Below are positions 39,679 to 50,670 of a stretch of 64,000 bases of DNA, in pieces. Positions within the stretch are counted from its first letter, which is position 1. Every line of letters starts with the position of its first letter. Location of the stretch: NCBI RefSeq assembly GCF_020177595.1, contig NZ_JAHTBL010000003.1:248001-312000 (forward strand), read 5' to 3'. The notes beneath the pieces are model-generated. The model worked only from the letters and a program-made list of their open reading frames with translations, was not told the DNA's origin and did not search any database. Origin of the DNA: Cognatishimia sp. MH4019 (GTDB lineage: Bacteria > Pseudomonadota > Alphaproteobacteria > Rhodobacterales > Rhodobacteraceae). The position numbers and the translations under genes were made by a program.

Positions 39679-40059
39679 TTAGCTGTCCTCGATCACCTTG
39701 CGCGCCACGCGAAAGCATTCCAGCGCTTGCGGCACCCCGCAATAGATGCCGATCACATGGATGATCGCGCGGATCTCGTCCTGGCTGACGCCGTTATTGA
39801 TCGCGCCGCGGCAATGGGTTTCCCATTCTGCCATTTTACCCAAAGCGCCGATCATCGACAGGTTCATCATTGAGCGCGTCTTGGCGTCGATCACATCATC
39901 GCCCCAGCCAAACCCCCAGCACCACGCTGTCATCGCTTCTTGAAAGGGGCGGGTGAAGTCATCGGCCTTGGCCAGGTTCTTCTCGACATATTCAGCGCCA
40001 AGCGTCGCCTTGCGCTGTTCCAGACCCTTGAGAAACAGGTCTTCGTCAAAAGTGCTCAT
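39679..40059 (-). CDS. carboxymuconolactone decarboxylase/AhpD-like protein
   Basis: 126 aa all-helical protein of the CMD family. The conserved region DAKTRSMMNLSMIGALGKMAEWETH with a histidine ahead of RGAINNGVSQDEI matches the PcaC type; the CxxC of peroxidase-active AhpD is absent. Members decarboxylate gamma-carboxymuconolactone or are of unknown role. It is the last gene of the regulator-Rieske-aldehyde dehydrogenase operon, four bases after the dehydrogenase. No other beta-ketoadipate gene is near, so PcaC function is not supported. Confidence 0.82.
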   Translation of the reverse strand: MSTFDEDLFLKGLEQRKATLGAEYVEKNLAKADDFTRPFQEAMTAWCWGFGWGDDVIDAKTRSMMNLSMIGALGKMAEWETHCRGAINNGVSQDEIRAIIHVIGIYCGVPQALECFRVARKVIEDS

Positions 40060-40062
40060 GCG

Positions 40063-41520
40063 CTACGCTCCCAGCTTGATTGCGACGTTTTTCGTCTGCA
40101 CGTAATTCCACAAGGCCTCACGGCCTTTCTCGCGACCATAGCCTGATTTGCCGTAACCGCCGAAGGGGGTTTCCACACCGCCCGCATACCATTCGTTCAC
40201 AAAGACCTGACCTGCGCGCAGCTGACGGGCGGCACGGGTGGCCCGGTCAAGATCACGCGTGAAAACACCGCCGACCAGCCCGTAAGATGTGCCGTTGGCC
40301 ATCCCGATCGCCTCGTCATCCGAGGAAAACCTCAGCACCGACAGCACAGGCCCGAACACCTCTTCACTTGCGATGGCCATATCCGGCGTCACATCGGTGA
40401 TAATCGTGGGCTCCAGAAACGCGCCGGAAATGTTTGGCTTGCGTCCGCCGGTTGCCACGCGCGCCCCGTCGGTTTGGGCCTGGCCGACCATGGCGGCCGC
40501 GCGGTCGCGCTGCGCCTCTGACACCATCGCGCCCATGGTTGCGCCAAACTCCGGCTGCTCAATGCCCGGTTTCACGCTCAGCGATTTCGCCACGCCCACC
40601 ATCCGCTCGACCAGCGCGTCATGGATGCTGTCATGCACGATGACCCGGCTCATGGCCGAGCAGACTTGCCCCGCGTTGAAGTAAATGCCCCAACGCACGT
40701 CATTCTCGAACGCCTCAAGATCGGCGTCATCATGGACAATCGCTGCGGATTTACCGCCCAGTTCCAGCACGCAAGGCACCACGTTCTGCGCAGCCGCCGT
40801 GGCGATGGCGATCCCCGTGGGCACGGATCCGGTAAAGACGATCTGGTTCACATCCCGATGGGCCGAGAGGGCGGCACCGGCCTCTTTCCCCAATCCGCAC
40901 AGGATATTGACGGCGCCGTCTGGCAAACCCGCCGCTTCTGCAGCTTGGGCGAGCCATGCCGTGCTGAGCGGGGTCAGCTCCGGCGTTTTGATCACGCAGG
41001 CATTGCCGGTGGCCAAAGCCGCCGACAGCGACCGCGCCGTCATTTCAATCGGGTAGTTCCACGGGATAATCTGCGCCGATACGCCGAATGGCTCGTAGGT
41101 TGTAAAATCGAAATAGCCCTTTCCCAACGGGATCGAGCGCCCCTCGACCGTTTCTGCCTGATTGCCGTAATACTCGAAATACCGCGCAGCGCCTTCGATC
41201 TCGATCCGCGCCTCCCAAAGCGGCTTGCCTTGCTCCAGCGTCAGCACCTCGGCAATGGCGTCGATATGGTCCAGCAGATAGCGCCCCATCGCTTGCACCA
41301 TGCGGCCCCGCTCTACCGGGCGCAGGTCCGACAACGCGCCTGACACATGCACCCGCTTTGCGGCTTGCACGGCGCGGTCGACATCCGCGGAGTCTGCCAG
41401 TGCCTGCGTGGCCAGCCGCGCGCCTGTGGCGGGGTTGATTACGTCAATCCGCCCTGCGCCGCCGTCGCCCCAGGCGCCGTCAATGTAGTTTTGCCAATAC
41501 GGCTTTATCTCAGCCATCAA
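40063..41520 (-). CDS. aldehyde dehydrogenase (NAD(P)+)
   Basis: 485 aa ALDH superfamily member. Catalytic C287 in GQVCSAMS, general base E253 in LELGGKS, and cofactor loop FTGSVPTG near 229-236 are all present. It resembles betaine-aldehyde and related dehydrogenases. Its start overlaps the Rieske gene by 11 bases. In this cluster it could oxidise the aldehyde released when the oxygenase breaks a C-N bond, or formaldehyde from demethylation; neither can be told from the sequence. Confidence 0.92.
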   Translation of the reverse strand: MMAEIKPYWQNYIDGAWGDGGAGRIDVINPATGARLATQALADSADVDRAVQAAKRVHVSGALSDLRPVERGRMVQAMGRYLLDHIDAIAEVLTLEQGKPLWEARIEIEGAARYFEYYGNQAETVEGRSIPLGKGYFDFTTYEPFGVSAQIIPWNYPIEMTARSLSAALATGNACVIKTPELTPLSTAWLAQAAEAAGLPDGAVNILCGLGKEAGAALSAHRDVNQIVFTGSVPTGIAIATAAAQNVVPCVLELGGKSAAIVHDDADLEAFENDVRWGIYFNAGQVCSAMSRVIVHDSIHDALVERMVGVAKSLSVKPGIEQPEFGATMGAMVSEAQRDRAAAMVGQAQTDGARVATGGRKPNISGAFLEPTIITDVTPDMAIASEEVFGPVLSVLRFSSDDEAIGMANGTSYGLVGGVFTRDLDRATRAARQLRAGQVFVNEWYAGGVETPFGGYGKSGYGREKGREALWNYVQTKNVAIKLGA

Positions 41521-42589
41521 TCGCCTCCCGCATCCAGCGTTGCAGATGCATGACCGGATGTTCGGAATTCACACCGCCTTTCGGATCAACCACCAAAGGC
41601 CCGGGCCGGTATCCGCGCGAGCCAAGCCCGCGCTGCACGCTTTCGACCAGAGAGATATCTTCCTCGACGGTTGTGGCGCGGTCCTGCACCGCCAAGCGGC
41701 GCACCTTCTCGTCATCGGCCCCTTGCAGCGAATACCAGCCCCGCCAGACGACCACGTTTTCCGCATCGACCGCGCGCCAGTGATAGGTGTTCAGCACATT
41801 GCCCGGATAGACCTGAAACGAGAACATCGGCCACAGGAACCAACTGGAATATTCGTCAAAATGCGCAAAGCCCGAGCGGATGTCATAGGTCATGTCATCA
41901 AGGCTTTGGCATTGTGTCGTGTGGCGCAGGCACATGCCTTGAGGCTGGATGTCGTAGGTCTCGGGCTTGACGACGCCATTGGCGAATGTCGGGTGGTTTA
42001 GCGCGCAATGATAGCATTCGGAATAATTCTCGACCGAGACTTTCCAATTGCAGTTCTCTTCGATTTCCACCCATTCCAGCGGGGCCAGATCCGCCCAGTT
42101 GGGCACCCAGTCTTCAAGCTCGGCCCGCGTGCCGGGAAACCAATCATCCATGGGAGCGGCCTCCGGGTCCAGATTGACGAAAAGAAATCCCAGAAAGGCC
42201 TCTGCGCGCACTTCGGTGAGGCAGACAGAAGATTTGTCGAACCCTTCCACAGCCTTCAGGTTCGGTCCGGCGCGAAGCTGTCCGGTCAACTCATAGGTCC
42301 ACGCGTGATAAGGGCAAACGACCACGCGAGTGGTGCCTGTGCCGCTGACAAGCTGATGCGCGCGGTGTTGGCAGACATTGTAGAAAACGCGCACCTTGTC
42401 GTCGCGCCCCCGGATCGCGAACAGGCTTTCGCCCGCGATCTCGAAAGTTGCATAATCGCCGGTCTTGGCCAGTTCGGACATATGGCAGCCAAACTGCCAG
42501 GTCTTTGCCAAAAGCCCGTGCCGTTCGATCTGAAACATCTGTGGGTCGGTATAGTACCGGGCCTCTAGAGAGCGCAGCGGAGCGGTCAT
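41510..42589 (-). CDS. Rieske oxygenase alpha subunit, quaternary-amine type
   Basis: 359 aa. The Rieske [2Fe-2S] ligands are C73-x-H75 and C92-x2-H95. The mononuclear iron site is H194 and H199 in ENYSECYHCALNHP. The residue three before H194, which bridges the two metal sites, is a glutamate (E191). Aromatic dioxygenases have aspartate there, while carnitine, glycine-betaine and stachydrine oxygenases have glutamate. This points to oxidative N-demethylation or C-N cleavage of a quaternary amine. A reductase subunit is not encoded in the cluster. The start overlaps the RpiR stop (ATGA). Confidence 0.88.
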   Translation of the reverse strand: MTAPLRSLEARYYTDPQMFQIERHGLLAKTWQFGCHMSELAKTGDYATFEIAGESLFAIRGRDDKVRVFYNVCQHRAHQLVSGTGTTRVVVCPYHAWTYELTGQLRAGPNLKAVEGFDKSSVCLTEVRAEAFLGFLFVNLDPEAAPMDDWFPGTRAELEDWVPNWADLAPLEWVEIEENCNWKVSVENYSECYHCALNHPTFANGVVKPETYDIQPQGMCLRHTTQCQSLDDMTYDIRSGFAHFDEYSSWFLWPMFSFQVYPGNVLNTYHWRAVDAENVVVWRGWYSLQGADDEKVRRLAVQDRATTVEEDISLVESVQRGLGSRGYRPGPLVVDPKGGVNSEHPVMHLQRWMREAIDG

Positions 42590-43473
42590 GTGTTGTCCTC
42601 GTGATACATGCCAAGCTGATGTCTTCTTTTGTGAAATGTCTCGACCCGTTCAACGATCTCATCGCTCGCCACGGAAATGACGAAAGAGAGCAGCGTTTCC
42701 AGAAGGGCGACGGTTGTCACGGATGATGGAAAGAACTGCGGTGTGTCGCAGGTGATGACAAAGCCATGATCAGCCAACCGAATGATCGGGCTGGCCGGGC
42801 TGTCGGAAATCGCGACCACCCGCATCCCTTGCGCTTTTGCGCGGTTCACGGCCTCGACCACTTCGGCGCGGTAGGGGCGGCAGGTGATGGCGATCAGCAC
42901 GTCTTTGCCGTCGGCCCAGGCCAGATCATCAATCGCATTTGATCCCGCTTTCGGGATCGCATGAAACCGAACCATGCCCGTTGACGCCAGATAGGTGAAG
43001 TTGCGGGCGCTGGAATTGTTCACGCCGACCCCCAGCGTGAACACATTTTCCGAGTTCCAGATCGTTTCCGCAGCGCATTTCAGATCATCAGCCGAGATGC
43101 CCGCAAACGTCTCTTCGATATTGCGCAGGGTGGCTTGCACCATGTCGGCATAAAGCCCGCCCAGATCGCCGGATTTGCGGATGTCTTGCAGCCAGCGTGC
43201 ACGATCGGGAAAATCCGCCGCCCCGCGCCGGATTGCGTCACGGAAGGGGGCGCGGAAATCCTCGTAGCCGTCGAAGCCCACTTGCCGCGCCATGCGCACG
43301 ACGGTGTTCGGCTTCACGTTGGCGGCTTCGGCAATCTCGCGCACGGTCGACACACCGACATCGCGGGGGTTTTCCAAGACGTAGGTGGCGGCTTTGCGTG
43401 CTTCGGGGGTCAGGACCGACAACTCGCCCGCCAACCGCTCCAGAATCGTATTTGATACATTTGTCCCATTCAT
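42586..43473 (-). CDS. MurR/RpiR family transcriptional regulator
   Basis: 295 aa. The N-terminal RpiR helix-turn-helix (residues about 8-80; STVREIAEAANVKPNTVVRMARQVGF) is followed by a SIS domain at about 125-260 (VFTLGVGVNNSSARNFTYLAS), which usually senses a sugar phosphate, though in catabolic clusters it senses other metabolites. The ATG at 43473 is chosen because homology begins there. It is the first gene of the minus-strand arm and is divergent from the flavoprotein gene over 70 bases, so it probably controls both arms. Confidence 0.88.
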   Translation of the reverse strand: MNGTNVSNTILERLAGELSVLTPEARKAATYVLENPRDVGVSTVREIAEAANVKPNTVVRMARQVGFDGYEDFRAPFRDAIRRGAADFPDRARWLQDIRKSGDLGGLYADMVQATLRNIEETFAGISADDLKCAAETIWNSENVFTLGVGVNNSSARNFTYLASTGMVRFHAIPKAGSNAIDDLAWADGKDVLIAITCRPYRAEVVEAVNRAKAQGMRVVAISDSPASPIIRLADHGFVITCDTPQFFPSSVTTVALLETLLSFVISVASDEIVERVETFHKRRHQLGMYHEDNT

Positions 43474-43543
43474 GATTGACGATGGTATTTTTGTTTGCTT
43501 ACCGTGTCGAGAGAAAATCGACTCGAAAAAGGAGGGTCGCCCC
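43474..43543. promoter_or_regulatory. divergent control region of the RpiR/flavoprotein arms
   Basis: 70 bases between two divergent starts; AT-rich in the middle. Weak inverted repeats are visible: GGTA (43484-43487) with TACC (43500-43503), and TCGAG (43507-43511) with CTCGA (43522-43526). Either could be the RpiR site. AAGGAGG at 43529-43535 is the ribosome site of the GTG-started flavoprotein. Confidence 0.35.
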
Positions 43544-45991
43544 GTGCCCCAGGATTTCCCCACGCAGGCTCGTGTCGTCATTGTCGGTGGCGGTGTCATG
43601 GGCGTCGGCCTTGCCTACCATCTTGGCCACGAAGGGTGGGGAGCCGAGACAGTTCTGCTGGAGAAGGCAGAGCTGACCAGCGGCAGCACATGGCACGCGG
43701 CGGGGCAGATCACGCATTCCACGTCCAACTTCGGGCTGGGCAAATGCGTCGACTATAACATCGGTCTTTATTCTGGCGGCCTGGAGGCCGAGACGGGCCA
43801 GCCCGTCACATGGCATGGCTGCGGTTCGTTTCGGCTTGCCTATACCGAGGACGAGATGGACTGGCTGCGCCATACGCTTTCGGTCGGTCGTGCCCTTGGG
43901 TTCAATATCGACCTGGTCGGGCCTGAGCGCGTGGCTCAGATGCATCCGTTCTACAATCTCGACGGCGTCTTGGGTGCGCTGCACACGCCTGATGACGGCC
44001 ATGTCGATCCGACGAATGTCACCATGGCGATGGCTGCAGGTGCGCGCCAGAACGGCGTGAGGATCATCCGCCAATGTCGCGCCACGAACATTACGCAGCT
44101 GCCGTCGGGCGATTGGCAGGTCGAGACCCCGAAAGGCACGATCACATGTGAACATGTCGTCAACGCAGGTGGAACCTATGCGCGTCAGATGGGCGAATGG
44201 TCGGGGCTGCAACTGCCAATGACGTCGATGACGCATCACTACTTCGTCACCGAGCCGGTGCCGGAGTTTGAAGCGCTCGGCACGGAACTGCCGGTGATCC
44301 GCGATGACAAGAAAGTCTCGGGTTACATCCGCATGGAGCAAAAGCGCGGATTGATCGGCATCTACGAGAAAGAGAATCCAAACTCTGTCTGGCACGATCA
44401 TTGTCCGTGGGACTATGAAAACTGGCTCTTTGACGCCGATTATGACCGGGTCATGCCGTATCTTGAGGAAAGCCTGAACCGCATGCCGATCTTTGCCGAA
44501 CTGGGCATCCAGCGCGAGGTTCATGGCGCGATCAGTCATCCGCCCGATGGCAACCCGCTGATCGGCCCCGCACCGGGGGTGCGCAATTACTGGTGCTGCT
44601 GCGGCACGCAAATCGGCATTGGCTGGGGGCCGGGGCTGACCCGTGAGCTGGCCCGCTGGATGGTCCACGGGGCCGCCGATATCTCTATGCGCGAATACGA
44701 TCCACGCCGGTTTGGCAGCTATGCGACAAAGGACTGGCAGGTCGTGAAGGCGCGAGAAGACTACTGCCTGCGTCACGAAATCCCGTTTCCGCATTTCAAC
44801 CGCCTTGCAGGTCGCCCGATCAAACCGTCGCCCCTTCATGAGGTGCTCAAATCGAAGGGCGCCGTGTATGAAGAGGTTTACGGGTTCGAACGCCCGCGCT
44901 GGTTTGCCAAAGGAGGCGTGCCGCAAGAGGATCACTATTCCTTCAACCGCACCATTGTGGACGCCATCGTCGCGGCAGAGGTCAAAGCCGTGCGCGAAAA
45001 GGCCGGCCTGATTGACGTGACCGCCTTTACCAAGGTTCTTGTCGAAGGCCCTGACGCCTATGCGCTGCTCGACCGGCTCACCGCTAATCGGATGCCCCAA
45101 AAGCAAGGCTCAATCACGCTGACCCATATGCTCAACCGCGCGGGCCGGATCGAGCTGGAAACCACGATTGTGCGGATGGCCGATGATCAGTTCTATCTGG
45201 TCTGCGCTGCCTTTTTCGAGCAACGCCTGCTGGATCATCTGGACACCCAGCGCGACGGGGATGCGGTTACCATCACCGCGCGCTCTGCCGAATGGGCGGC
45301 CCTTGCACTGAATGGCCCGAACGCCCGCGATATTCTTGAGGTCTGCACCGATGCGGACTTGAGCAATGCCGGGTTTCGCTGGCTTTCGGCGCAGGAAATC
45401 ACTGTTGCAGGCCATGATATCTGGGCCTTTCGGATGTCCTATGCGGGCGAGTTGGGATGGGAGTTTCACATGCCCAACGTCGCCTGTCTTGACGTCTACA
45501 ACGCGCTCTGGGCCGCGGGGCAATCGCACGGGCTGATCGACTACGGCTCTTTCGCAATGAATGTCATGCGGATGGAGAAAGGCTTTAAAGGCGCAGGCGA
45601 GTTGACCAATGAAGTGACGCTTGCCGAGGCTGATGTCTTGCGCTTTGCGCGCAGCGACAAGACCTATCTGGGCAAGGACAAGACGCTGAACACCGACCTG
45701 CCTTGGGTCTGCGCCTATCTCGAAATCGAGCCTGACGGGAAGGCCGATGGCCATGGCGGCGAAGCGGTGCTGATGGAGGGCGACGTCGTCGGCTCTACCG
45801 CGTCTGTGGCTTATGGCCCGACCGTCGGCAAGATCCTTGCCTTTGCCTATATCAAGCCGCACGCCGCAAAGCCCGGCACCGCTTTGGAGGTTGTGATCCA
45901 CGGCACCCCGCGCCCTGCGCGGGTTCTCGCAGAGCCGGCCTATGACCCTCAAGGTCTCAAGCCGCGGGTCGATGCGACGGTGCTGGCATGA
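43544..45991 (+). CDS. FAD-dependent demethylase with GcvT domain (dimethylglycine/sarcosine dehydrogenase family)
   Basis: 815 aa from a GTG with AAGGAGG eight bases upstream. Residues about 8-420 are the DAO-type FAD domain: VVIVGGGVMG dinucleotide loop and STWHAAG, whose H51 is where DMGDH relatives attach FAD covalently. Residues about 430-810 are a GcvT/aminomethyltransferase domain that passes the removed methyl group to tetrahydrofolate. Likely reaction: oxidative N-demethylation of a tertiary or secondary amine made by the Rieske enzyme. The exact substrate is not known. It overlaps the next gene by four bases. Confidence 0.88.
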   Translation: MPQDFPTQARVVIVGGGVMGVGLAYHLGHEGWGAETVLLEKAELTSGSTWHAAGQITHSTSNFGLGKCVDYNIGLYSGGLEAETGQPVTWHGCGSFRLAYTEDEMDWLRHTLSVGRALGFNIDLVGPERVAQMHPFYNLDGVLGALHTPDDGHVDPTNVTMAMAAGARQNGVRIIRQCRATNITQLPSGDWQVETPKGTITCEHVVNAGGTYARQMGEWSGLQLPMTSMTHHYFVTEPVPEFEALGTELPVIRDDKKVSGYIRMEQKRGLIGIYEKENPNSVWHDHCPWDYENWLFDADYDRVMPYLEESLNRMPIFAELGIQREVHGAISHPPDGNPLIGPAPGVRNYWCCCGTQIGIGWGPGLTRELARWMVHGAADISMREYDPRRFGSYATKDWQVVKAREDYCLRHEIPFPHFNRLAGRPIKPSPLHEVLKSKGAVYEEVYGFERPRWFAKGGVPQEDHYSFNRTIVDAIVAAEVKAVREKAGLIDVTAFTKVLVEGPDAYALLDRLTANRMPQKQGSITLTHMLNRAGRIELETTIVRMADDQFYLVCAAFFEQRLLDHLDTQRDGDAVTITARSAEWAALALNGPNARDILEVCTDADLSNAGFRWLSAQEITVAGHDIWAFRMSYAGELGWEFHMPNVACLDVYNALWAAGQSHGLIDYGSFAMNVMRMEKGFKGAGELTNEVTLAEADVLRFARSDKTYLGKDKTLNTDLPWVCAYLEIEPDGKADGHGGEAVLMEGDVVGSTASVAYGPTVGKILAFAYIKPHAAKPGTALEVVIHGTPRPARVLAEPAYDPQGLKPRVDATVLA

Positions 45992-47070
45992 GCGTGCCGG
46001 ACACCATGACGGCCATGGTCACGATGGGTCATGGCGATCTTGACCAGATCGTGCTGCACACCGACTGGCCGCGCCCGACCCCTGCATCTGGTGAAGTGCT
46101 GATCCGCGTCGGCGCCTGCGGGCTGAACAACACTGACGTGAACACCCGGTCCGGCTGGTATTCCAAGACGGTGACCGAGGCCACAACCGGCGGAGCTTTC
46201 GATGAGGTTGGTGAAGATGACCCCACATGGGGTGGTGCGCCGATCAGTTTTCCGCGCATTCAGGGTGCGGATGTCTGCGGCGTGATCGTCGCTGTGGGTG
46301 CGGGGGTCAATCCCGCGCGCGTGGGCGAACGGGTCATCACCGATAACTGGCTGCGCGACGCGGACGCGCCGGATGATCTTGGCAAAACAGGCTATTTCGG
46401 CTCTGAGCGCGACGGTGGCTTTGCAGAGTTCACCACGATCCCCGCGCGCAACGCGCTTGCGGTCCGCTCGCAGATGACTGATGTCGAGCTTGCGACTTTT
46501 TCATGCTCTTACTCGACGGCCGAAGGGATGCTGACCCGCGCCAAGGTCACCGCGAAAGATACCGTTCTTGTTCCCGGTGCGTCCGGCGGGGTTGGCGGCG
46601 CGCTGGTGCAACTTGCCAAACGCCGCGGCGCGCGCGTTATCGCCATGGCGTCCGAGGTAAAACATGCGCAGGTTGCCGCTTTCGGTCCCGACATGTTGCT
46701 GCCCCGCGCGCCAGACGACCTGCGCGCCGCCCTGAAAGGCGAACAGATCACCGTGGTTGCCGATATTGTCGGCGGGCCGTATTGGCCCAAATTGATCGAC
46801 ATTCTCGAACGCGGTGGGCGTTACACGTGCTCGGGTGCGATTGCGGGGCCTATGGTCACGCTTGATCTGCGCACTTTCTATTTGCGCGATCTCAGCTTTC
46901 TGGGCTCCACCGTGATCCCGCCTGAGGTCATGCCGAACCTGATCCGCTATATCGAAGCGGGAGAGATCAGACCCGCGTTGGCCGCGACCTACAAGCTGAC
47001 CGATCTTCGCGAGGCTCAAGCGGCGTTTATCGCCAAGACCCATACCGGCAATATCGTGGTGACGCCGTGA
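45988..47070 (+). CDS. MDR superfamily oxidoreductase, zinc-free type
   Basis: 360 aa quinone-reductase-like dehydrogenase. The entry ACGLNNTDVNTR has N-x-x-D in place of the catalytic zinc cysteine. The nucleotide loop is VPGASGGVGGALVQLA near residue 195. An insertion of about 25 residues follows the first motif (GGAFDEVGEDDPTWGG). The ATGA overlap with the flavoprotein shows coupling. It probably reduces or oxidises an alpha,beta-unsaturated or carbonyl intermediate of the pathway, which is inference only. Confidence 0.86.
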   Translation: MSVPDTMTAMVTMGHGDLDQIVLHTDWPRPTPASGEVLIRVGACGLNNTDVNTRSGWYSKTVTEATTGGAFDEVGEDDPTWGGAPISFPRIQGADVCGVIVAVGAGVNPARVGERVITDNWLRDADAPDDLGKTGYFGSERDGGFAEFTTIPARNALAVRSQMTDVELATFSCSYSTAEGMLTRAKVTAKDTVLVPGASGGVGGALVQLAKRRGARVIAMASEVKHAQVAAFGPDMLLPRAPDDLRAALKGEQITVVADIVGGPYWPKLIDILERGGRYTCSGAIAGPMVTLDLRTFYLRDLSFLGSTVIPPEVMPNLIRYIEAGEIRPALAATYKLTDLREAQAAFIAKTHTGNIVVTP

Positions 47071-47186
47071 TCCTCGGCGGCATCTCTGCCGCCCATGGGG
47101 CGAAGCGGCACAATGGCCAGCTTCGCGTGCCAGATATTCGTGATTTTGAAGCCCGCGGCACGCCTGCAGCGGAGTGTGCACGATGA
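47067..47186 (+). CDS. possible 39-aa ORF coupled to both neighbours
   Basis: A GTG overlaps the MDR stop (GTGA), and the TGA overlaps the ATG of the next gene (ATGA), filling the only gap in this arm exactly. The 39-residue product is basic with a GGISAAHGAKRHNG start and matches nothing I know. About 58% of third codon positions are G or C, which looks low for this neighbourhood, so it may be just a leader that carries ribosomes across. Confidence 0.3.
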   Translation: MILGGISAAHGAKRHNGQLRVPDIRDFEARGTPAAECAR

Positions 47187-48289
47187 AGATCACGCGTCTT
47201 TCGGTCTACCATGTCGATCTTCCATTGGAGCATCCTTACTGGATCTCCGGTGGGCGGCTTAAACATGAAGTGCTCGACGCGACATTCGTGAAGATGGAGA
47301 CAGATGCGGGTTTGATCGGCTGGGGCGAAGGCACGCCCTGGGGTCATACCTATGTGCCTGCCCACGGTCCCGGCATCCGCGCAGGGATCGAGACTATGGC
47401 GCCTTTCGTATTGGGGCTGGACCCGCGGCGCGTGCTGGATGTGGAACGCGCGATGGATCTCGCGCTGCCCGGCCATCTTTATGCAAAAAGCCCTCTCGAC
47501 ATGGCCTGCTGGGATATCGCGGGCCAAGCTGCTGGTCTGCCCATCGCTGATCTGATGGGCGGTGGATCACGCACACCGCGTCCCATAGCATCTTCTGTCG
47601 GGGCCAGGACAGTCGCGGACACCCGCGCGGTGATTGAGCGCTATCGCCAGCGCGGCTATGTCGCGCATTCAGTCAAGATTGGCGGCGATGTGGCCCGCGA
47701 TATCGCCCGCATCCGCGACGTTGAAGCGATCCGCCGCGATGGCGAGATTGTGCTTTATGACGTCAATCGGGGCTGGAGCCGGGCGCAGGCCTTGCAAGTC
47801 ATCTCTGCCACGCAAGACCTGACGGTGATGTTCGAGCAACCTTGCGAGACCCTTGATGATATCGCCGCCATCTCGGGCAAACACGCAGCCCCCGTCAGCG
47901 TCGATGAAAGCCTTGTCACCTTGCAAGACGCTGCCCGGATCGCTCGCGACGGGTTGGCCGAAGTGTTCGGCATCAAACTCAATCGGGTCGGTGGGCTTAC
48001 CAAGGCCGCGCGGCTTCGCGATGTGGCGCTGGCCCATGGCATCGACATGTTCGTGATGGCGACCGGTGGCACGGTGTTGGCCGATACCGAAGCGCTCCAT
48101 CTTGCGGCCACGATCCCTGATGCGCATTGCCACGCGGTTTGGGCCTGTCAGGACATGATCACAACCGAGATTGCAGGCGGCCGGGGACCACGCAACATTG
48201 ATGGCCACCTGCATCTGCCCGAAAGCCCCGGCCTTGGCGTGCATCCCGATGAAGACGCGCTTGGCGATCCGGTCGCGGTCTATTCATGA
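47183..48289 (+). CDS. enolase-superfamily racemase/dehydratase (MLE/HpbD-like), first copy
   Basis: 368 aa from the ATG at 47183 (GGAG eight bases upstream). Catalytic lysines K165 (SVKIGG) and K265 (GIKLNRVGG) face each other across the barrel, and metal ligands are D193 (YDVNRGW), E218 (FEQPC) and D241 (SVDES). Two opposed lysines are the pattern of 1,1-proton-transfer enzymes such as hydroxyproline-betaine 2-epimerase (HpbD), N-acylamino-acid racemase or cis-3-hydroxyproline dehydratase. It overlaps the second copy by four bases. Reaction inferred from residues only. Confidence 0.85.
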   Translation: MKITRLSVYHVDLPLEHPYWISGGRLKHEVLDATFVKMETDAGLIGWGEGTPWGHTYVPAHGPGIRAGIETMAPFVLGLDPRRVLDVERAMDLALPGHLYAKSPLDMACWDIAGQAAGLPIADLMGGGSRTPRPIASSVGARTVADTRAVIERYRQRGYVAHSVKIGGDVARDIARIRDVEAIRRDGEIVLYDVNRGWSRAQALQVISATQDLTVMFEQPCETLDDIAAISGKHAAPVSVDESLVTLQDAARIARDGLAEVFGIKLNRVGGLTKAARLRDVALAHGIDMFVMATGGTVLADTEALHLAATIPDAHCHAVWACQDMITTEIAGGRGPRNIDGHLHLPESPGLGVHPDEDALGDPVAVYS

Positions 48290-49389
48290 AAGTCGCCAAG
48301 ATCACCCTTTGGTCCGTCGATCTGAGCAGTCACGAGACCTACTACATGGCCGACGGGAAGACATGCGCAACGGTCAAAACCCATGTGCTGTGTCTTGAGA
48401 CCGATACCGGCCTGCGCGGTTGGGGCGAGGTCTGCCCGATCCCGCATTATCTGCCCGCATTTGCCGATGGCATCCCCAGCGCGCTCACGGAAATGGCTCC
48501 GGAAATCTTGGGCGTCTCGCCCTTTGGTGTCGATGCTCCGATGCGCAAACTTGATGGATATCTTCCAGGTCACAGCGCTGCGAAATCTATTGTCGACATG
48601 GCCTTTTGGGATTTGTTTGGCCGCGCTACCGATCAACCGCTCTATACGCTTCTGGGCGGGCGCACGCGCAAGGACATGCCGCTTTACCATTCTATCACCT
48701 GTGTCGCCCCGGACGAGATGGCCCGCATCGCCCGCGAGGCTTTTGCGACCGGCATTCGCCAGTTTCAGGTCAAACTTGGTGCGGATGCGGATTGGCAGGC
48801 AGATGCCGAACGGCTTATCAAGGTACGTGAGGCTGTGGGCGAGGGGCCGATCGTCTATGGTGACTGGAATTGCGGCGCATCCAAATTGCAGGCCACACGT
48901 ACCGGGCGCGCTGTGTGCGATCTCGATATCATGCTCGAACAGCCCTGCAAGACATTGCCCGAATGCGCGGCCGTGCGCCAAGCGACCAGCTTGCCGATGA
49001 AAATTGACGAATTGGTCTTCGATCTTGCGTCGCTTCTACAGGCCAATGATCTGGGCTGCCTTGACGCGGTTGCGCTGAAACTGTCGAAGTTCGGCGGACT
49101 GTCTGCCATGCGCCGCGCGCGGGACCTGACTGTGCATCTGGGCGCGCAAATCTGTGCCGAATGCACATGGGGGTCGGATATCGTGACGGCGGCATCCCTT
49201 CATTTTGCGGCCTCAACGCCCCGAGGGGCATTGCTCAACACCTGCGATCTGTCGTCTTATGTGGCACCACGTCTGTGCCGGGATGCCCCAACCCGTTCGC
49301 AGGGGCGCATTGCGCCGCCCGAAGGCCCCGGTCTGGGCGTGATACCTGATAAAGACGTCCTAGGACGCCCATTGCTGGAGCTAAGCTGA
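48286..49389 (+). CDS. enolase-superfamily racemase/dehydratase (MLE/HpbD-like), second copy
   Basis: 367 aa. K163 (QVKLGA), D193 (YGDWN), E218 (LEQPC), D241 (KIDE) and K265 (ALKLSKFGG) form the full active-site set; the numbering is the one I recall for HpbD of Pelagibaca. WGEVCPIPHYLP and the substrate-side residues differ from the first copy, so the two probably act on different intermediates or stereoisomers. The start overlaps the previous stop (ATGA). Confidence 0.85.
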   Translation: MKVAKITLWSVDLSSHETYYMADGKTCATVKTHVLCLETDTGLRGWGEVCPIPHYLPAFADGIPSALTEMAPEILGVSPFGVDAPMRKLDGYLPGHSAAKSIVDMAFWDLFGRATDQPLYTLLGGRTRKDMPLYHSITCVAPDEMARIAREAFATGIRQFQVKLGADADWQADAERLIKVREAVGEGPIVYGDWNCGASKLQATRTGRAVCDLDIMLEQPCKTLPECAAVRQATSLPMKIDELVFDLASLLQANDLGCLDAVALKLSKFGGLSAMRRARDLTVHLGAQICAECTWGSDIVTAASLHFAASTPRGALLNTCDLSSYVAPRLCRDAPTRSQGRIAPPEGPGLGVIPDKDVLGRPLLELS

Positions 49390-49392
49390 CCG

Positions 49393-50670
49393 ATGCAAAA
49401 GATGACATCGCAAACCGAATGGATCACCCGCGCACAAGCCGTTCTGCCTGCTGGCGGATTCGGGAATTTTGATCCCGGCATTATCATCGCACGAGGCGAG
49501 GGTAGCCGCGTTTGGGATGAGGATGGCACCGAATATGTCGACTACCTCATTGGCTCTGGCCCCATGCTGTTGGGCCATGGCCATCCCGAAGTGATGGAAG
49601 CCGTTCTGGAGCAGCTTCCCCTTGGTATGACGTTTTTTGCCAATAACGCCAAAGGGATCGAACTGGCCGAAGCCATCGTGGAGGCCGTACCCTGCTGCGA
49701 GCAGGTGCGCTTTGTGGCTTCGGGCGGTGAAGCGGATATGTATGCGATCCGTCTGGCGCGCGCCTATACGGGCCGCGACAAAATCCTGAAATTCGAAGGT
49801 GGCTATCACGGGATGAGTGCCGAGGCCCAGATGAGCCTTGCTCCCGAAAAGCGCGTGAATTTCCCGCAAGCCGTACCGGACAGTGCAGGTATTCCTCAAA
49901 GTGTCGCTGATCAAATGCTGATCGCGCCGTTCAATGATCTTGCCGCGGTCGAGGCGCTTTTGTCCGAACATAGCGACATTGCCGCGATCATCGCAGAGCC
50001 TTTGCAGCGCATCGTTCCGCCTGAACCCGGCTTTCTGCAAGCTCTTCGTGATCTGTGCGACAAGCACCACGTCCTGTTGATCTTCGACGAAATCGTCACC
50101 GGGTTCCGTCTTGCCTATGGCGGCGCGCAGGAGCGCTATGGTGTGACGCCTGATATCTGTACGCTGGGCAAGATCATCGGCGGTGGCTTTCCTTTGGCCG
50201 CCCTTGGGGCCAGCGCCGACATCATGCGCCATTTCGACAAAGGCGTGGTGGGCGGTGACAAATGGTTGATGCAGCTTGGCACCTTATCCGGCAATCCTGT
50301 GGCTGCAGCAGCAGGCCTCAAAACGATGGAGGTGCTGGCCCGGCCCGGTGCTTACGGGCAACTGCGAGAGACAGGGCAGGCATTGCAGAAAATGCAATCC
50401 GATGCGTTGAACGCCGCCGGTATCCCGCATCAAATCTGTGGTGATGAGACGCTTTTTGACATCTTCTTCACGGCCACCCCCTGTCGGGACTACCGCTCGG
50501 CTCATCACGATGATCCGAACCGGAATGCCGTTTACAACACTGCGTTGCGCGCCCACGGGGTTTTCAAGTCTCCGGGCAAACTCTACCCGTCGCTGGCCGT
50601 TACTGACGCCGATCTGGACATGACGAAGCATGCGATTTCAAAGGCTGTAGAGGCGTTAGAGCAAAGCTGA
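49393..50670 (+). CDS. class III aminotransferase (glutamate-1-semialdehyde-aminomutase-like)
   Basis: 425 aa PLP enzyme. The Schiff-base lysine is K260 in CTLGKIIGGGFP, D232 holds the PLP nitrogen (IFDEIVTGFR), and GSGGEAD-type residues ASGGEAD are near 110. It resembles HemL but lies three bases after the second enolase-type gene, in a catabolic operon, and the HemL-typical start is not kept, so a role in haem synthesis is unlikely. It would move an amino group of a pathway intermediate to a keto acid. Last gene of the plus arm. Confidence 0.87.
   Translation: MQKMTSQTEWITRAQAVLPAGGFGNFDPGIIIARGEGSRVWDEDGTEYVDYLIGSGPMLLGHGHPEVMEAVLEQLPLGMTFFANNAKGIELAEAIVEAVPCCEQVRFVASGGEADMYAIRLARAYTGRDKILKFEGGYHGMSAEAQMSLAPEKRVNFPQAVPDSAGIPQSVADQMLIAPFNDLAAVEALLSEHSDIAAIIAEPLQRIVPPEPGFLQALRDLCDKHHVLLIFDEIVTGFRLAYGGAQERYGVTPDICTLGKIIGGGFPLAALGASADIMRHFDKGVVGGDKWLMQLGTLSGNPVAAAAGLKTMEVLARPGAYGQLRETGQALQKMQSDALNAAGIPHQICGDETLFDIFFTATPCRDYRSAHHDDPNRNAVYNTALRAHGVFKSPGKLYPSLAVTDADLDMTKHAISKAVEALEQS

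Follow-up and report, generated by a model that had tools for sequence, protein, structure and literature searches.

A nine-gene Rieske-enolase cluster of marine Rhodobacterales: a possible catabolic route for a quaternary-ammonium zwitterion, with DddQ inside the cluster of some relatives

Gene clusters for the breakdown of hydroxyproline betaine and proline betaine that contain HpbD have reportedly been described by Zhao in 2013 and Kumar in 2014; the downstream hydroxyproline genes encode D-hydroxyproline dehydrogenase and a deaminase. Here we analyze a 64,000-nucleotide stretch (the window) of Cognatishimia sp. MH4019 (contig NZ_JAHTBL010000003.1; genome size, 3.6 Mb), in which nine genes spanning 39679-50670 likewise encode a Rieske oxygenase, a flavin demethylase, and an HpbD-related enolase. 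In contrast to the described clusters, the Rieske enzyme is of another group, the flavoprotein is of the dimethylglycine dehydrogenase (DMGDH) type, and there are in addition an aminotransferase, a carboxymuconolactone-decarboxylase-like protein (CMD), a medium-chain dehydrogenase/reductase (MDR), and a second enolase with a characteristic Asp. By Pfam, neither D-hydroxyproline dehydrogenase nor the deaminase is among the nine.

We put at about even the chance that this is a marine Rhodobacterales catabolic cluster for a quaternary-ammonium zwitterion in which C-N cleavage by the Rieske enzyme comes first and the steps proposed here follow. The Rieske enzyme, like carnitine monooxygenase, would break a C-N bond after hydroxylating a carbon beside the quaternary nitrogen, and the aldehyde so formed would be oxidized by the aldehyde dehydrogenase (ALDH); signature residues and gene order suggest these two steps. 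From its family, the flavoprotein would move N-methyl groups onto tetrahydrofolate. The enolase ENO2 would then epimerize or dehydrate the amine intermediate, by then not quaternary, the aminotransferase would take off the nitrogen, and CMD would decarboxylate a product. The other enolase, ENO1, and MDR may be an add-on that works on the betaine itself, by epimerization or dehydration and then C=C reduction; an additional module seen in relatives (a third enolase together with either DddQ or a family called F9 and a sulfotransferase) may widen the range. For the substrate we tentatively propose cyclic betaines of the (hydroxy)proline type, whose opening would give N,N-dimethyl-(hydroxy)glutamate semialdehyde, while rating the proposal as rather more apt to be wrong than right. 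Ring opening of such a betaine would make sense of the ALDH, the DMGDH-like protein, and the proline-type enolases together. The cluster would be a further roseobacter route for using nitrogen osmolytes.

The nearest solved relative of the Rieske protein is carnitine monooxygenase, CntA (221 bits); 3vca, which we take to be the stachydrine demethylase Stc2, reaches only 118 bits. By tblastn the protein is 36% identical to a record annotated as cntA. In the available text of one study, group Va enzymes (carnitine, choline, and benzalkonium oxygenases) have Tyr or Phe where group Vb enzymes (glycine betaine and stachydrine demethylation) have Asn (PMC7948474). All 110 Rieske sequences aligned here are of the group Va kind: Y189, at the position of CntA Tyr203, and E191, at that of the bridging Glu205 near the iron, are kept in every one, as are the Rieske ligands and the 2His-1Asp triad. 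(This set and the other residue-conservation sets, of 104, 101, 89, 77, 58, and 57 sequences, include duplicates.) At the Asn position of chains 3vca and 4qup, presumably both stachydrine demethylases, all 110 have Tyr. The NCBIfam GbcA equivalog gave 153 bits against a cut-off of 670; the window genome has three Rieske oxygenases that match this model, all below cut-off. Unlike CntA, the enzyme has no CntB-type reductase alongside and has a demethylase, enolases, and an aminotransferase as neighbors instead. Because of the group Va Tyr, and because an ALDH gene adjoins in 32 of 59 loci (the set is defined below), C-N cleavage to an aldehyde appears likelier for this enzyme than N-demethylation.

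The flavoprotein resembles dimethylglycine dehydrogenase in its FAD and GcvT domains (504.9 bits to 4pab), and the His of the WHAAG motif, which links FAD in that enzyme, is kept in 104 of 104 sequences. ALDH scored best against betaine-aldehyde and aminobutyraldehyde dehydrogenase models, below both cut-offs. The aminotransferase reached 361.7 of the 527.3 bits required by the HemL equivalog and 385.3 of the 398 required by the subfamily model NF000818; its solved relatives are glutamate-1-semialdehyde (GSA) aminomutases (315 bits) and a beta-phenylalanine aminotransferase (182 bits). CMD matched PcaC models best (TIGR02425, 117.2 bits; cut-off, 155.7), and its E78, E80, and H82 are invariant in 77 of 77 sequences. 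There is no CxxC, the hallmark of AhpD alkylhydroperoxidases, in its 126 residues, so that "AhpD-like," the label given to it in an earlier note on this DNA, has to be replaced by "PcaC-like." In four Roseovarius loci (L118, L125, L133, and L137; loci and genomes bear our L and G numbers) the CMD gene is followed by genes for a beta-keto acid cleavage enzyme (BKACE) and, by eye, a porin-like protein. For MDR, the best NCBIfam model is PIG3-type (below cut-off) and no zinc-ligand pattern was seen by eye, which points to a C=C reductase without zinc; with such a reductase, ENO1 and MDR could together carry out dehydration and reduction at the betaine level. An AcuI role for MDR was rejected on scores of 32.7 bits to NF051456 (cut-off, 440) and 69.3 bits to TIGR02823 (cut-off, 297.25), and the yhdH result described below, from the accessible part of PMC3338564, also speaks against it. 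Among the matches listed, no NCBIfam cut-off was reached by any of the nine proteins.

Both enolases of the window have the cis-3-hydroxyproline dehydratase model as their best match (312.5 and 315.6 bits), but fall short of its cut-off of 500, and their gene neighbors differ from those of that enzyme. The catalytic Lys pair and the metal ligands are invariant in ENO1 (58 sequences), ENO2 (101), and the third enolase of relatives, ENO1b (47). ENO1b is a similarity bin, with 47 members in one alignment and 53 in the other. In HpbD a Trp contacts the ammonium group of the substrate. We located its column with 4e8g, which we take to be an HpbD: ENO1 has Trp there in 58 of 58 sequences and so shares the Lys pair, the ligands, and the Trp, whereas ENO2 has the Lys pair and ligands without the Trp. 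In the column that follows, ENO2 has Asp (Asp321; 101 of 101), as do 52 of 53 ENO1b sequences and 4mgg, presumably the 3-hydroxyproline dehydratase LhpJ. ENO1 is 87% identical to 3eez, a structure that was deposited with no function assigned to it and that we believe to come from R. pomeroyi; among 4 + 394 genomes, none had a match to 3eez above 92% identity. Up to three enolase classes with predicted different specificities occur together. According to the available text of PMC5144071, LhpJ does both epimerization and dehydration of 3-hydroxyproline.

Comparison of gene order, which the earlier note had recommended, showed that the cluster recurs in the family and revealed both its variable accessory genes and DddQ. 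Of 198 family genomes, 35, with the window genome counted, have an ENO2 of at least 58% identity (the copy in G167 has one in-frame stop). The Rieske gene accompanies it in 34 of the 35, in several on a separate contig of a broken assembly; in the remaining genome, G099, the ENO2 contig is 4.9 kb. In four genomes the Rieske gene is present but a close ENO2 is not: the contigs of G041 and G098 end early, G109 has other enolases, and no enolase was recognized within 19 kb at the Rieske gene of G059. Among the best 80 of 328 related stretches from named genomes, the Rieske protein matched at 76% or more and the neighbors were mostly the same; the genera include Shimia, Tateyamaria, Ruegeria, Leisingera, Roseovarius, Lentibacter, and Pelagimonas, with some Rhizobiaceae metagenome-assembled genomes. 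Plasmid-borne versions were seen in Sulfitobacter, Roseovarius, Ruegeria, and Mesorhizobium. Because of the recurrence of ENO2 and of these neighbors, the grouping is not chance. The usual core consists of the Rieske enzyme, the RpiR regulator, the flavoprotein, ENO2, and the aminotransferase; ALDH, CMD, MDR, and ENO1 are variable. Both ENO2 and a close aminotransferase were found in 24 of 28 distinct loci that have the Rieske gene and the flavoprotein gene with 7 kb of sequence past it, a test run without the core-gene requirement of the 59-locus set.

That set consists of loci required to hold the Rieske, flavoprotein, ENO2, and aminotransferase genes plus 3 kb beyond the Rieske gene, so that its core constancy is by choice; two of 61 loci were removed for identical Rieske sequences (the full list has duplicates, e.g., L032/L078 and L031/L089). 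Twenty-one loci have the core only, 8 add MDR and ENO1 (the type of the window), 5 add MDR, ENO1, and DddQ or F9, 15 add MDR, ENO1, and the third enolase, and 10 are of other types. MDR occurs with ENO1 in 29 of 30 MDR loci; ENO1b occurs with DddQ or F9 in 18 of 19 loci, and DddQ or F9 is present in 7 of the 40 loci that have no ENO1b. Recounting by tblastn gave 31 loci with MDR instead of 30 and 16 with F9 instead of 17, both differences being at L126; the counts of ALDH, CMD, DddQ, and the sulfotransferase did not change. Each accessory trait changed 10 to 16 times on the Rieske tree. In independent pairs on that tree (means over 200 pairings), ENO1b and DddQ-or-F9 agreed in 5.7 and disagreed in 0.0 of 8 pairs (median P = 0.031; range, 0.031 to 0.22), MDR and ENO1 agreed in 4.7 and disagreed in 0.0 of 7 (median P = 0.0625), F9 and ENO1b agreed in 3.3 and disagreed in 0.1 of 5 (P = 0.25), and DddQ and MDR agreed in 3.1 and disagreed in 0.5 of 7 (P = 0.25). 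There was no link between DddQ and F9 in such pairs. The two occur together in 5 loci and are therefore not strict alternatives.

F9 is found with a sulfotransferase in 16 of 17 loci, and the F9-Sulfotransfer_5 pair is inserted beside the Rieske gene in 16 of the 59 clusters (e.g., L078:11073-12642). Cys residues C25, C108, and C217 are invariant in 15 aligned F9 sequences. Scores of 22.5 and 24.3 bits to the arylmalonate decarboxylase Pfam model are below its cut-off of 25.9, and the predicted fold (mean pLDDT, 79.8) is shared with arylmalonate decarboxylase and with maleate isomerase, at a query TM of about 0.57-0.72. By this model, F9 is an Asp/Glu-racemase-fold protein. Available passages of PMC8520302 place Alma1, an algal lyase for dimethylsulfoniopropionate (DMSP), in the aspartate racemase superfamily.

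The cupin found inside the cluster of some relatives, mostly between MDR and ENO1, is DddQ: the L033 protein matches 4la2 at an E value of 2e-87 and PF16867 at 62.6 bits (cut-off, 27). No PF16867 match was found in the window genome. There are 40 DddQ-like matches in 34 of the 198 genomes, 19 (in 15 genomes) inside the cluster and 21 outside it. We read 17 of the 21 outside matches, at 16 loci (G136, G004, G182, and G077 were left out); MDR adjoins in 3 of these loci, CMD in 2, and neither in 12, among which no common partner was seen. In G141, CMD, MDR, and DddQ lie together at a separate locus, followed by a tripartite ATP-independent periplasmic (TRAP) transporter, and none of the three is present in the 19.9 kb around its core cluster. 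As in our relatives, dddQ is linked to an MDR gene in R. pomeroyi (SPO1593 and dddQ) and R. nubinhibens (ISM_14095 and dddQ1-dddQ2), whereas the window version is without dddQ; an Escherichia coli yhdH mutant was not relieved of its sensitivity to acrylate by the R. nubinhibens MDR gene (both from the accessible part of PMC3338564). In the text available of two other papers, the Km of DddQ for DMSP is 22 mM and dddQ mutants lose dimethyl sulfide (DMS) output by 97% in R. pomeroyi and 20% in R. nubinhibens (PMC5395565), and the efficiency of DddQ is higher with dimethylsulfoxonium propionate (DMSOP) (PMC10686828). In view of these losses, DMSP cleavage in cells is real, whatever the origin of DddQ. 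A literature search that left most subscription papers outside it returned nothing joining DddQ with mandelate racemase and nothing on SPO1589-1592 or SPO1594-1595. The title of a 2018 paper reportedly states that the family of DddQ includes enzymes of unknown function.

DddQ is the strongest clue and makes the cluster more interesting than the earlier note had it; that note missed DddQ, the layered accessory genes, and the optional status of ENO1, MDR, ALDH, and CMD. It is conceivable, if on balance doubtful, that DddQ evolved as a beta-eliminating lyase of a nitrogen-betaine pathway, with MDR taking the unsaturated product, the unrelated F9 playing a similar part in other strains, and DMSP cleavage being largely a side activity. 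DddQ is known for making the climate-active gas DMS, and ocean surveys count it as a DMSP lyase that produces DMS, although it binds this supposed substrate weakly; if the idea were true, its main role would be another, and the cluster may reveal its real purpose. With 19 of the 40 DddQ-like genes from the sampled family genomes located in a quaternary-ammonium cluster, candidate substrates and mutants can be listed concretely.

How do other readings fare? The one closest to the described betaine clusters has the Rieske enzyme and the flavoprotein demethylate a proline-like betaine in turn, an enolase epimerize it, and the remaining enzymes process the freed amino acid. The membership of the enolases in the HpbD/3-hydroxyproline dehydratase group suits this, as does the DMGDH-like flavoprotein; genes for formaldehyde-activating (GFA) proteins near the Rieske gene in 19 loci suit a release of formaldehyde; and MttB-family methyltransferase genes lie near five loci (L037, L063, L094, L107, and L149; four distinct, as L037 and L107 are the same contig, with the MttB identity of one protein tested by Pfam). 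With Tyr rather than the group Vb Asn in 110 of 110 Rieske sequences, a GbcA score of 153 out of 670 bits, and the aminotransferase, ALDH, CMD, and MDR left unexplained, we consider it unlikely. The main alternative to a proline-type betaine is an acyclic beta-ammonio acid, such as beta-alanine betaine or the head group of DGTA, degraded by C-N cleavage or demethylation, beta-amino acid transamination, and then decarboxylation. DGTA is an algal betaine lipid with a hydroxymethyl-trimethyl-beta-alanine head group. On this route the beta-ammonium group would be the leaving group in an elimination by DddQ, as the sulfonium is with DMSP, and beta-onio propionates are DddQ substrates as far as the available text of PMC5395565 and PMC10686828 goes. 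The order of CMD and ALDH would fit decarboxylation followed by oxidation, the BKACE gene follows CMD in the four Roseovarius loci, and a beta-phenylalanine aminotransferase is among the solved relatives of the aminotransferase, although weaker than the GSA aminomutases (182 versus 315 bits). The enolases, however, fall into the proline-analogue group, neither a lipase gene nor a betaine-lipid gene was noticed next to the cluster (the flanks were not systematically annotated), and a literature search for such a route gave nothing related; we hold it to be rather improbable.

A DMSP or DMSOP cluster centered on DddQ is very improbable. The dddQ gene does lie within the cluster of some relatives, its mutants make less DMS, and its product is more efficient with DMSOP, as cited above, but 46 of the 59 clusters and the window genome are without DddQ, no part in DMSP breakdown is known for the Rieske enzyme, the DMGDH-like protein, or the aminotransferase, and the R. 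nubinhibens MDR gene did not rescue the yhdH mutant. On the same grounds DMSP was rejected as the main substrate. Homarine, too, was dropped; the paper passages available name no homarine gene cluster. A beta-ketoadipate-like route for an aromatic ring, with a Rieske dioxygenase, a muconate-type enolase, and carboxymuconolactone decarboxylase, might be read into the PcaC-like CMD and the 144 bits of ENO1 to the muconate cycloisomerase model. That score is below the cut-off of 335, no Rieske beta subunit is among the nine genes, and the nearest relative of the Rieske enzyme is an enzyme for quaternary amines, so that we give this route hardly any credence.

Several observations weigh against the proposed pathway with Rieske C-N cleavage as its first step. 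It is hard to see where the aminotransferase and CMD would fit into a proline-betaine route. The Tyr/Asn rule is based on few characterized enzymes, and the layer statistics on few independent changes. The GFA genes (19 loci, 10 of the 59 after deduplication; one protein tested by Pfam) leave room for formaldehyde release by demethylation. Just 32 of the 59 loci have ALDH, and 46 have CMD, so that the aldehyde step is not encoded locally at every locus. Nor is the core universal: L068 and L069 have no ENO2, L031 has no aminotransferase, and that of L071 is annotated but distant; the proposed mechanism does not depend on core constancy. By Pfam, no reductase of the CntB/GbcB ferredoxin-NADP reductase type is among the nine genes. 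In the window genome PF00970 matched a single protein, which is NqrF-like, lies outside the cluster (L203:243-1463, contig C12), and is a possible electron donor; relatives of it (83-85%) adjoin the cluster in L151 and a different Rieske-enolase cluster in L072. The latter, on a Leisingera caerulea plasmid (L072:6959-19337), has genes annotated as a LysR regulator, Rieske, ALDH, MDR, and enolase proteins, followed by a full Nqr operon.

The earlier note is thus partly supported. It was right to propose a betaine-type (quaternary-ammonium) catabolic cluster off the known hydroxyproline-betaine route, as the enolases are below the dehydratase cut-off and the flavoprotein is a DMGDH relative, and the isofunctional match to a defined pathway that would have spoken against it was not seen among the matches listed. 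Its proposal that the cluster strips N-methyl groups is plausible for the flavoprotein, from the DMGDH family, and doubtful for the Rieske enzyme, for which CntA is nearest and Tyr is universal; the GFA genes keep demethylation open.

The layout around the divergent region (Table 1), as given in the earlier note, agreed in coordinates, gap, and Pfam names for all nine products; the outer limits are the ends of the CMD and aminotransferase genes. The flavoprotein gene starts at GTG 43544, with AAGGAGGG upstream, which with the RpiR ATG at 43473 leaves the 70-base gap. Four of the seven same-strand junctions overlap (by 8, 4, 4, and 4 bases), two have 3-base gaps, and one has a 112-base gap, so "overlaps at nearly every junction" was a little strong. 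The 112 bases (47071-47182, if ENO1 starts at ATG 47183) lie between MDR and ENO1, where relatives have ENO1b or DddQ; in L032, of the same genus as the window, ENO1b is at this position with overlapping junctions. In comparisons with L032, L078, L074, L090, and L092, no remnant of a third enolase was recognized in the spacer (DddQ remnants were not sought).

Table 1. Features of the cluster and its divergent promoter region (window positions)
Feature	Coordinates	Strand	Remarks
CMD, PcaC-type carboxymuconolactone-decarboxylase-like	39679..40059	-	PF02627, 65 bits; optional member
ALDH	40063..41517	-	PF00171, 518 bits; Cys287, Glu253 in 57/57; optional member
Rieske monooxygenase alpha subunit, carnitine-monooxygenase-like	41510..42589	-	Rieske + Ring_hydroxyl_A; group Va signature
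RpiR-family regulator	42586..43473	-	HTH_6 + SIS (PF01418 + PF01380); start ATG 43473
Conserved block around RpiR start, possible operator	43453..43486	.	DNA-level conservation; takes in first RpiR codons
Divergent promoter region, 70 bases, inverted repeat GTCGA-N7-TCGAC	43474..43543	.	
DMGDH-like FAD/GcvT N-demethylase (predicted), core	43544..45991	+	DAO + FAO_M + GCV_T + GCV_T_C
MDR reductase, PIG3/quinone-oxidoreductase type, ENO1 partner	45988..47070	+	ADH_N, ADH_zinc_N
ENO1, enolase superfamily (MR_MLE), HpbD-type Trp	47183..48289	+	87% identity to PDB 3eez
ENO2, enolase superfamily (MR_MLE), core	48286..49389	+	Asp where HpbD group has Trp region
Class III aminotransferase, glutamate-1-semialdehyde type, core	49393..50670	+	Aminotran_3; Lys260 in 89/89

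When 79 distinct divergent regions were aligned, 28 of the 34 columns of the block around the RpiR start had one base at 90% or more, which suggests an operator overlapping the start codon. The inverted repeat was rejected as a general operator: a TCGA-N5-9-TCGA pair occurs in just 15 of the 79 regions (0/200 shuffles).

Two versions differ in their surroundings. On a Mesorhizobium plasmid (L068:7267-17911), genes for electron transfer flavoprotein alpha and beta and an extra FAD oxidoreductase adjoin the aminotransferase gene, and a GlxA-type regulator is encoded close by. The cluster of Ruegeria sp. SCSIO 43209 (L071:16264-28521) adjoins an operon annotated as phosphonate transport and C-P lyase. 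As to transporters as a clue to the substrate, no single type was recurrent at the loci: ABC ATPases, a mixed bin, are present at 26 loci, and TRAP DctM-like proteins, recognized by eye, at 8. An ABC set adjoins the cluster of L070, and a TRAP set adjoins the DddQ gene of L200.

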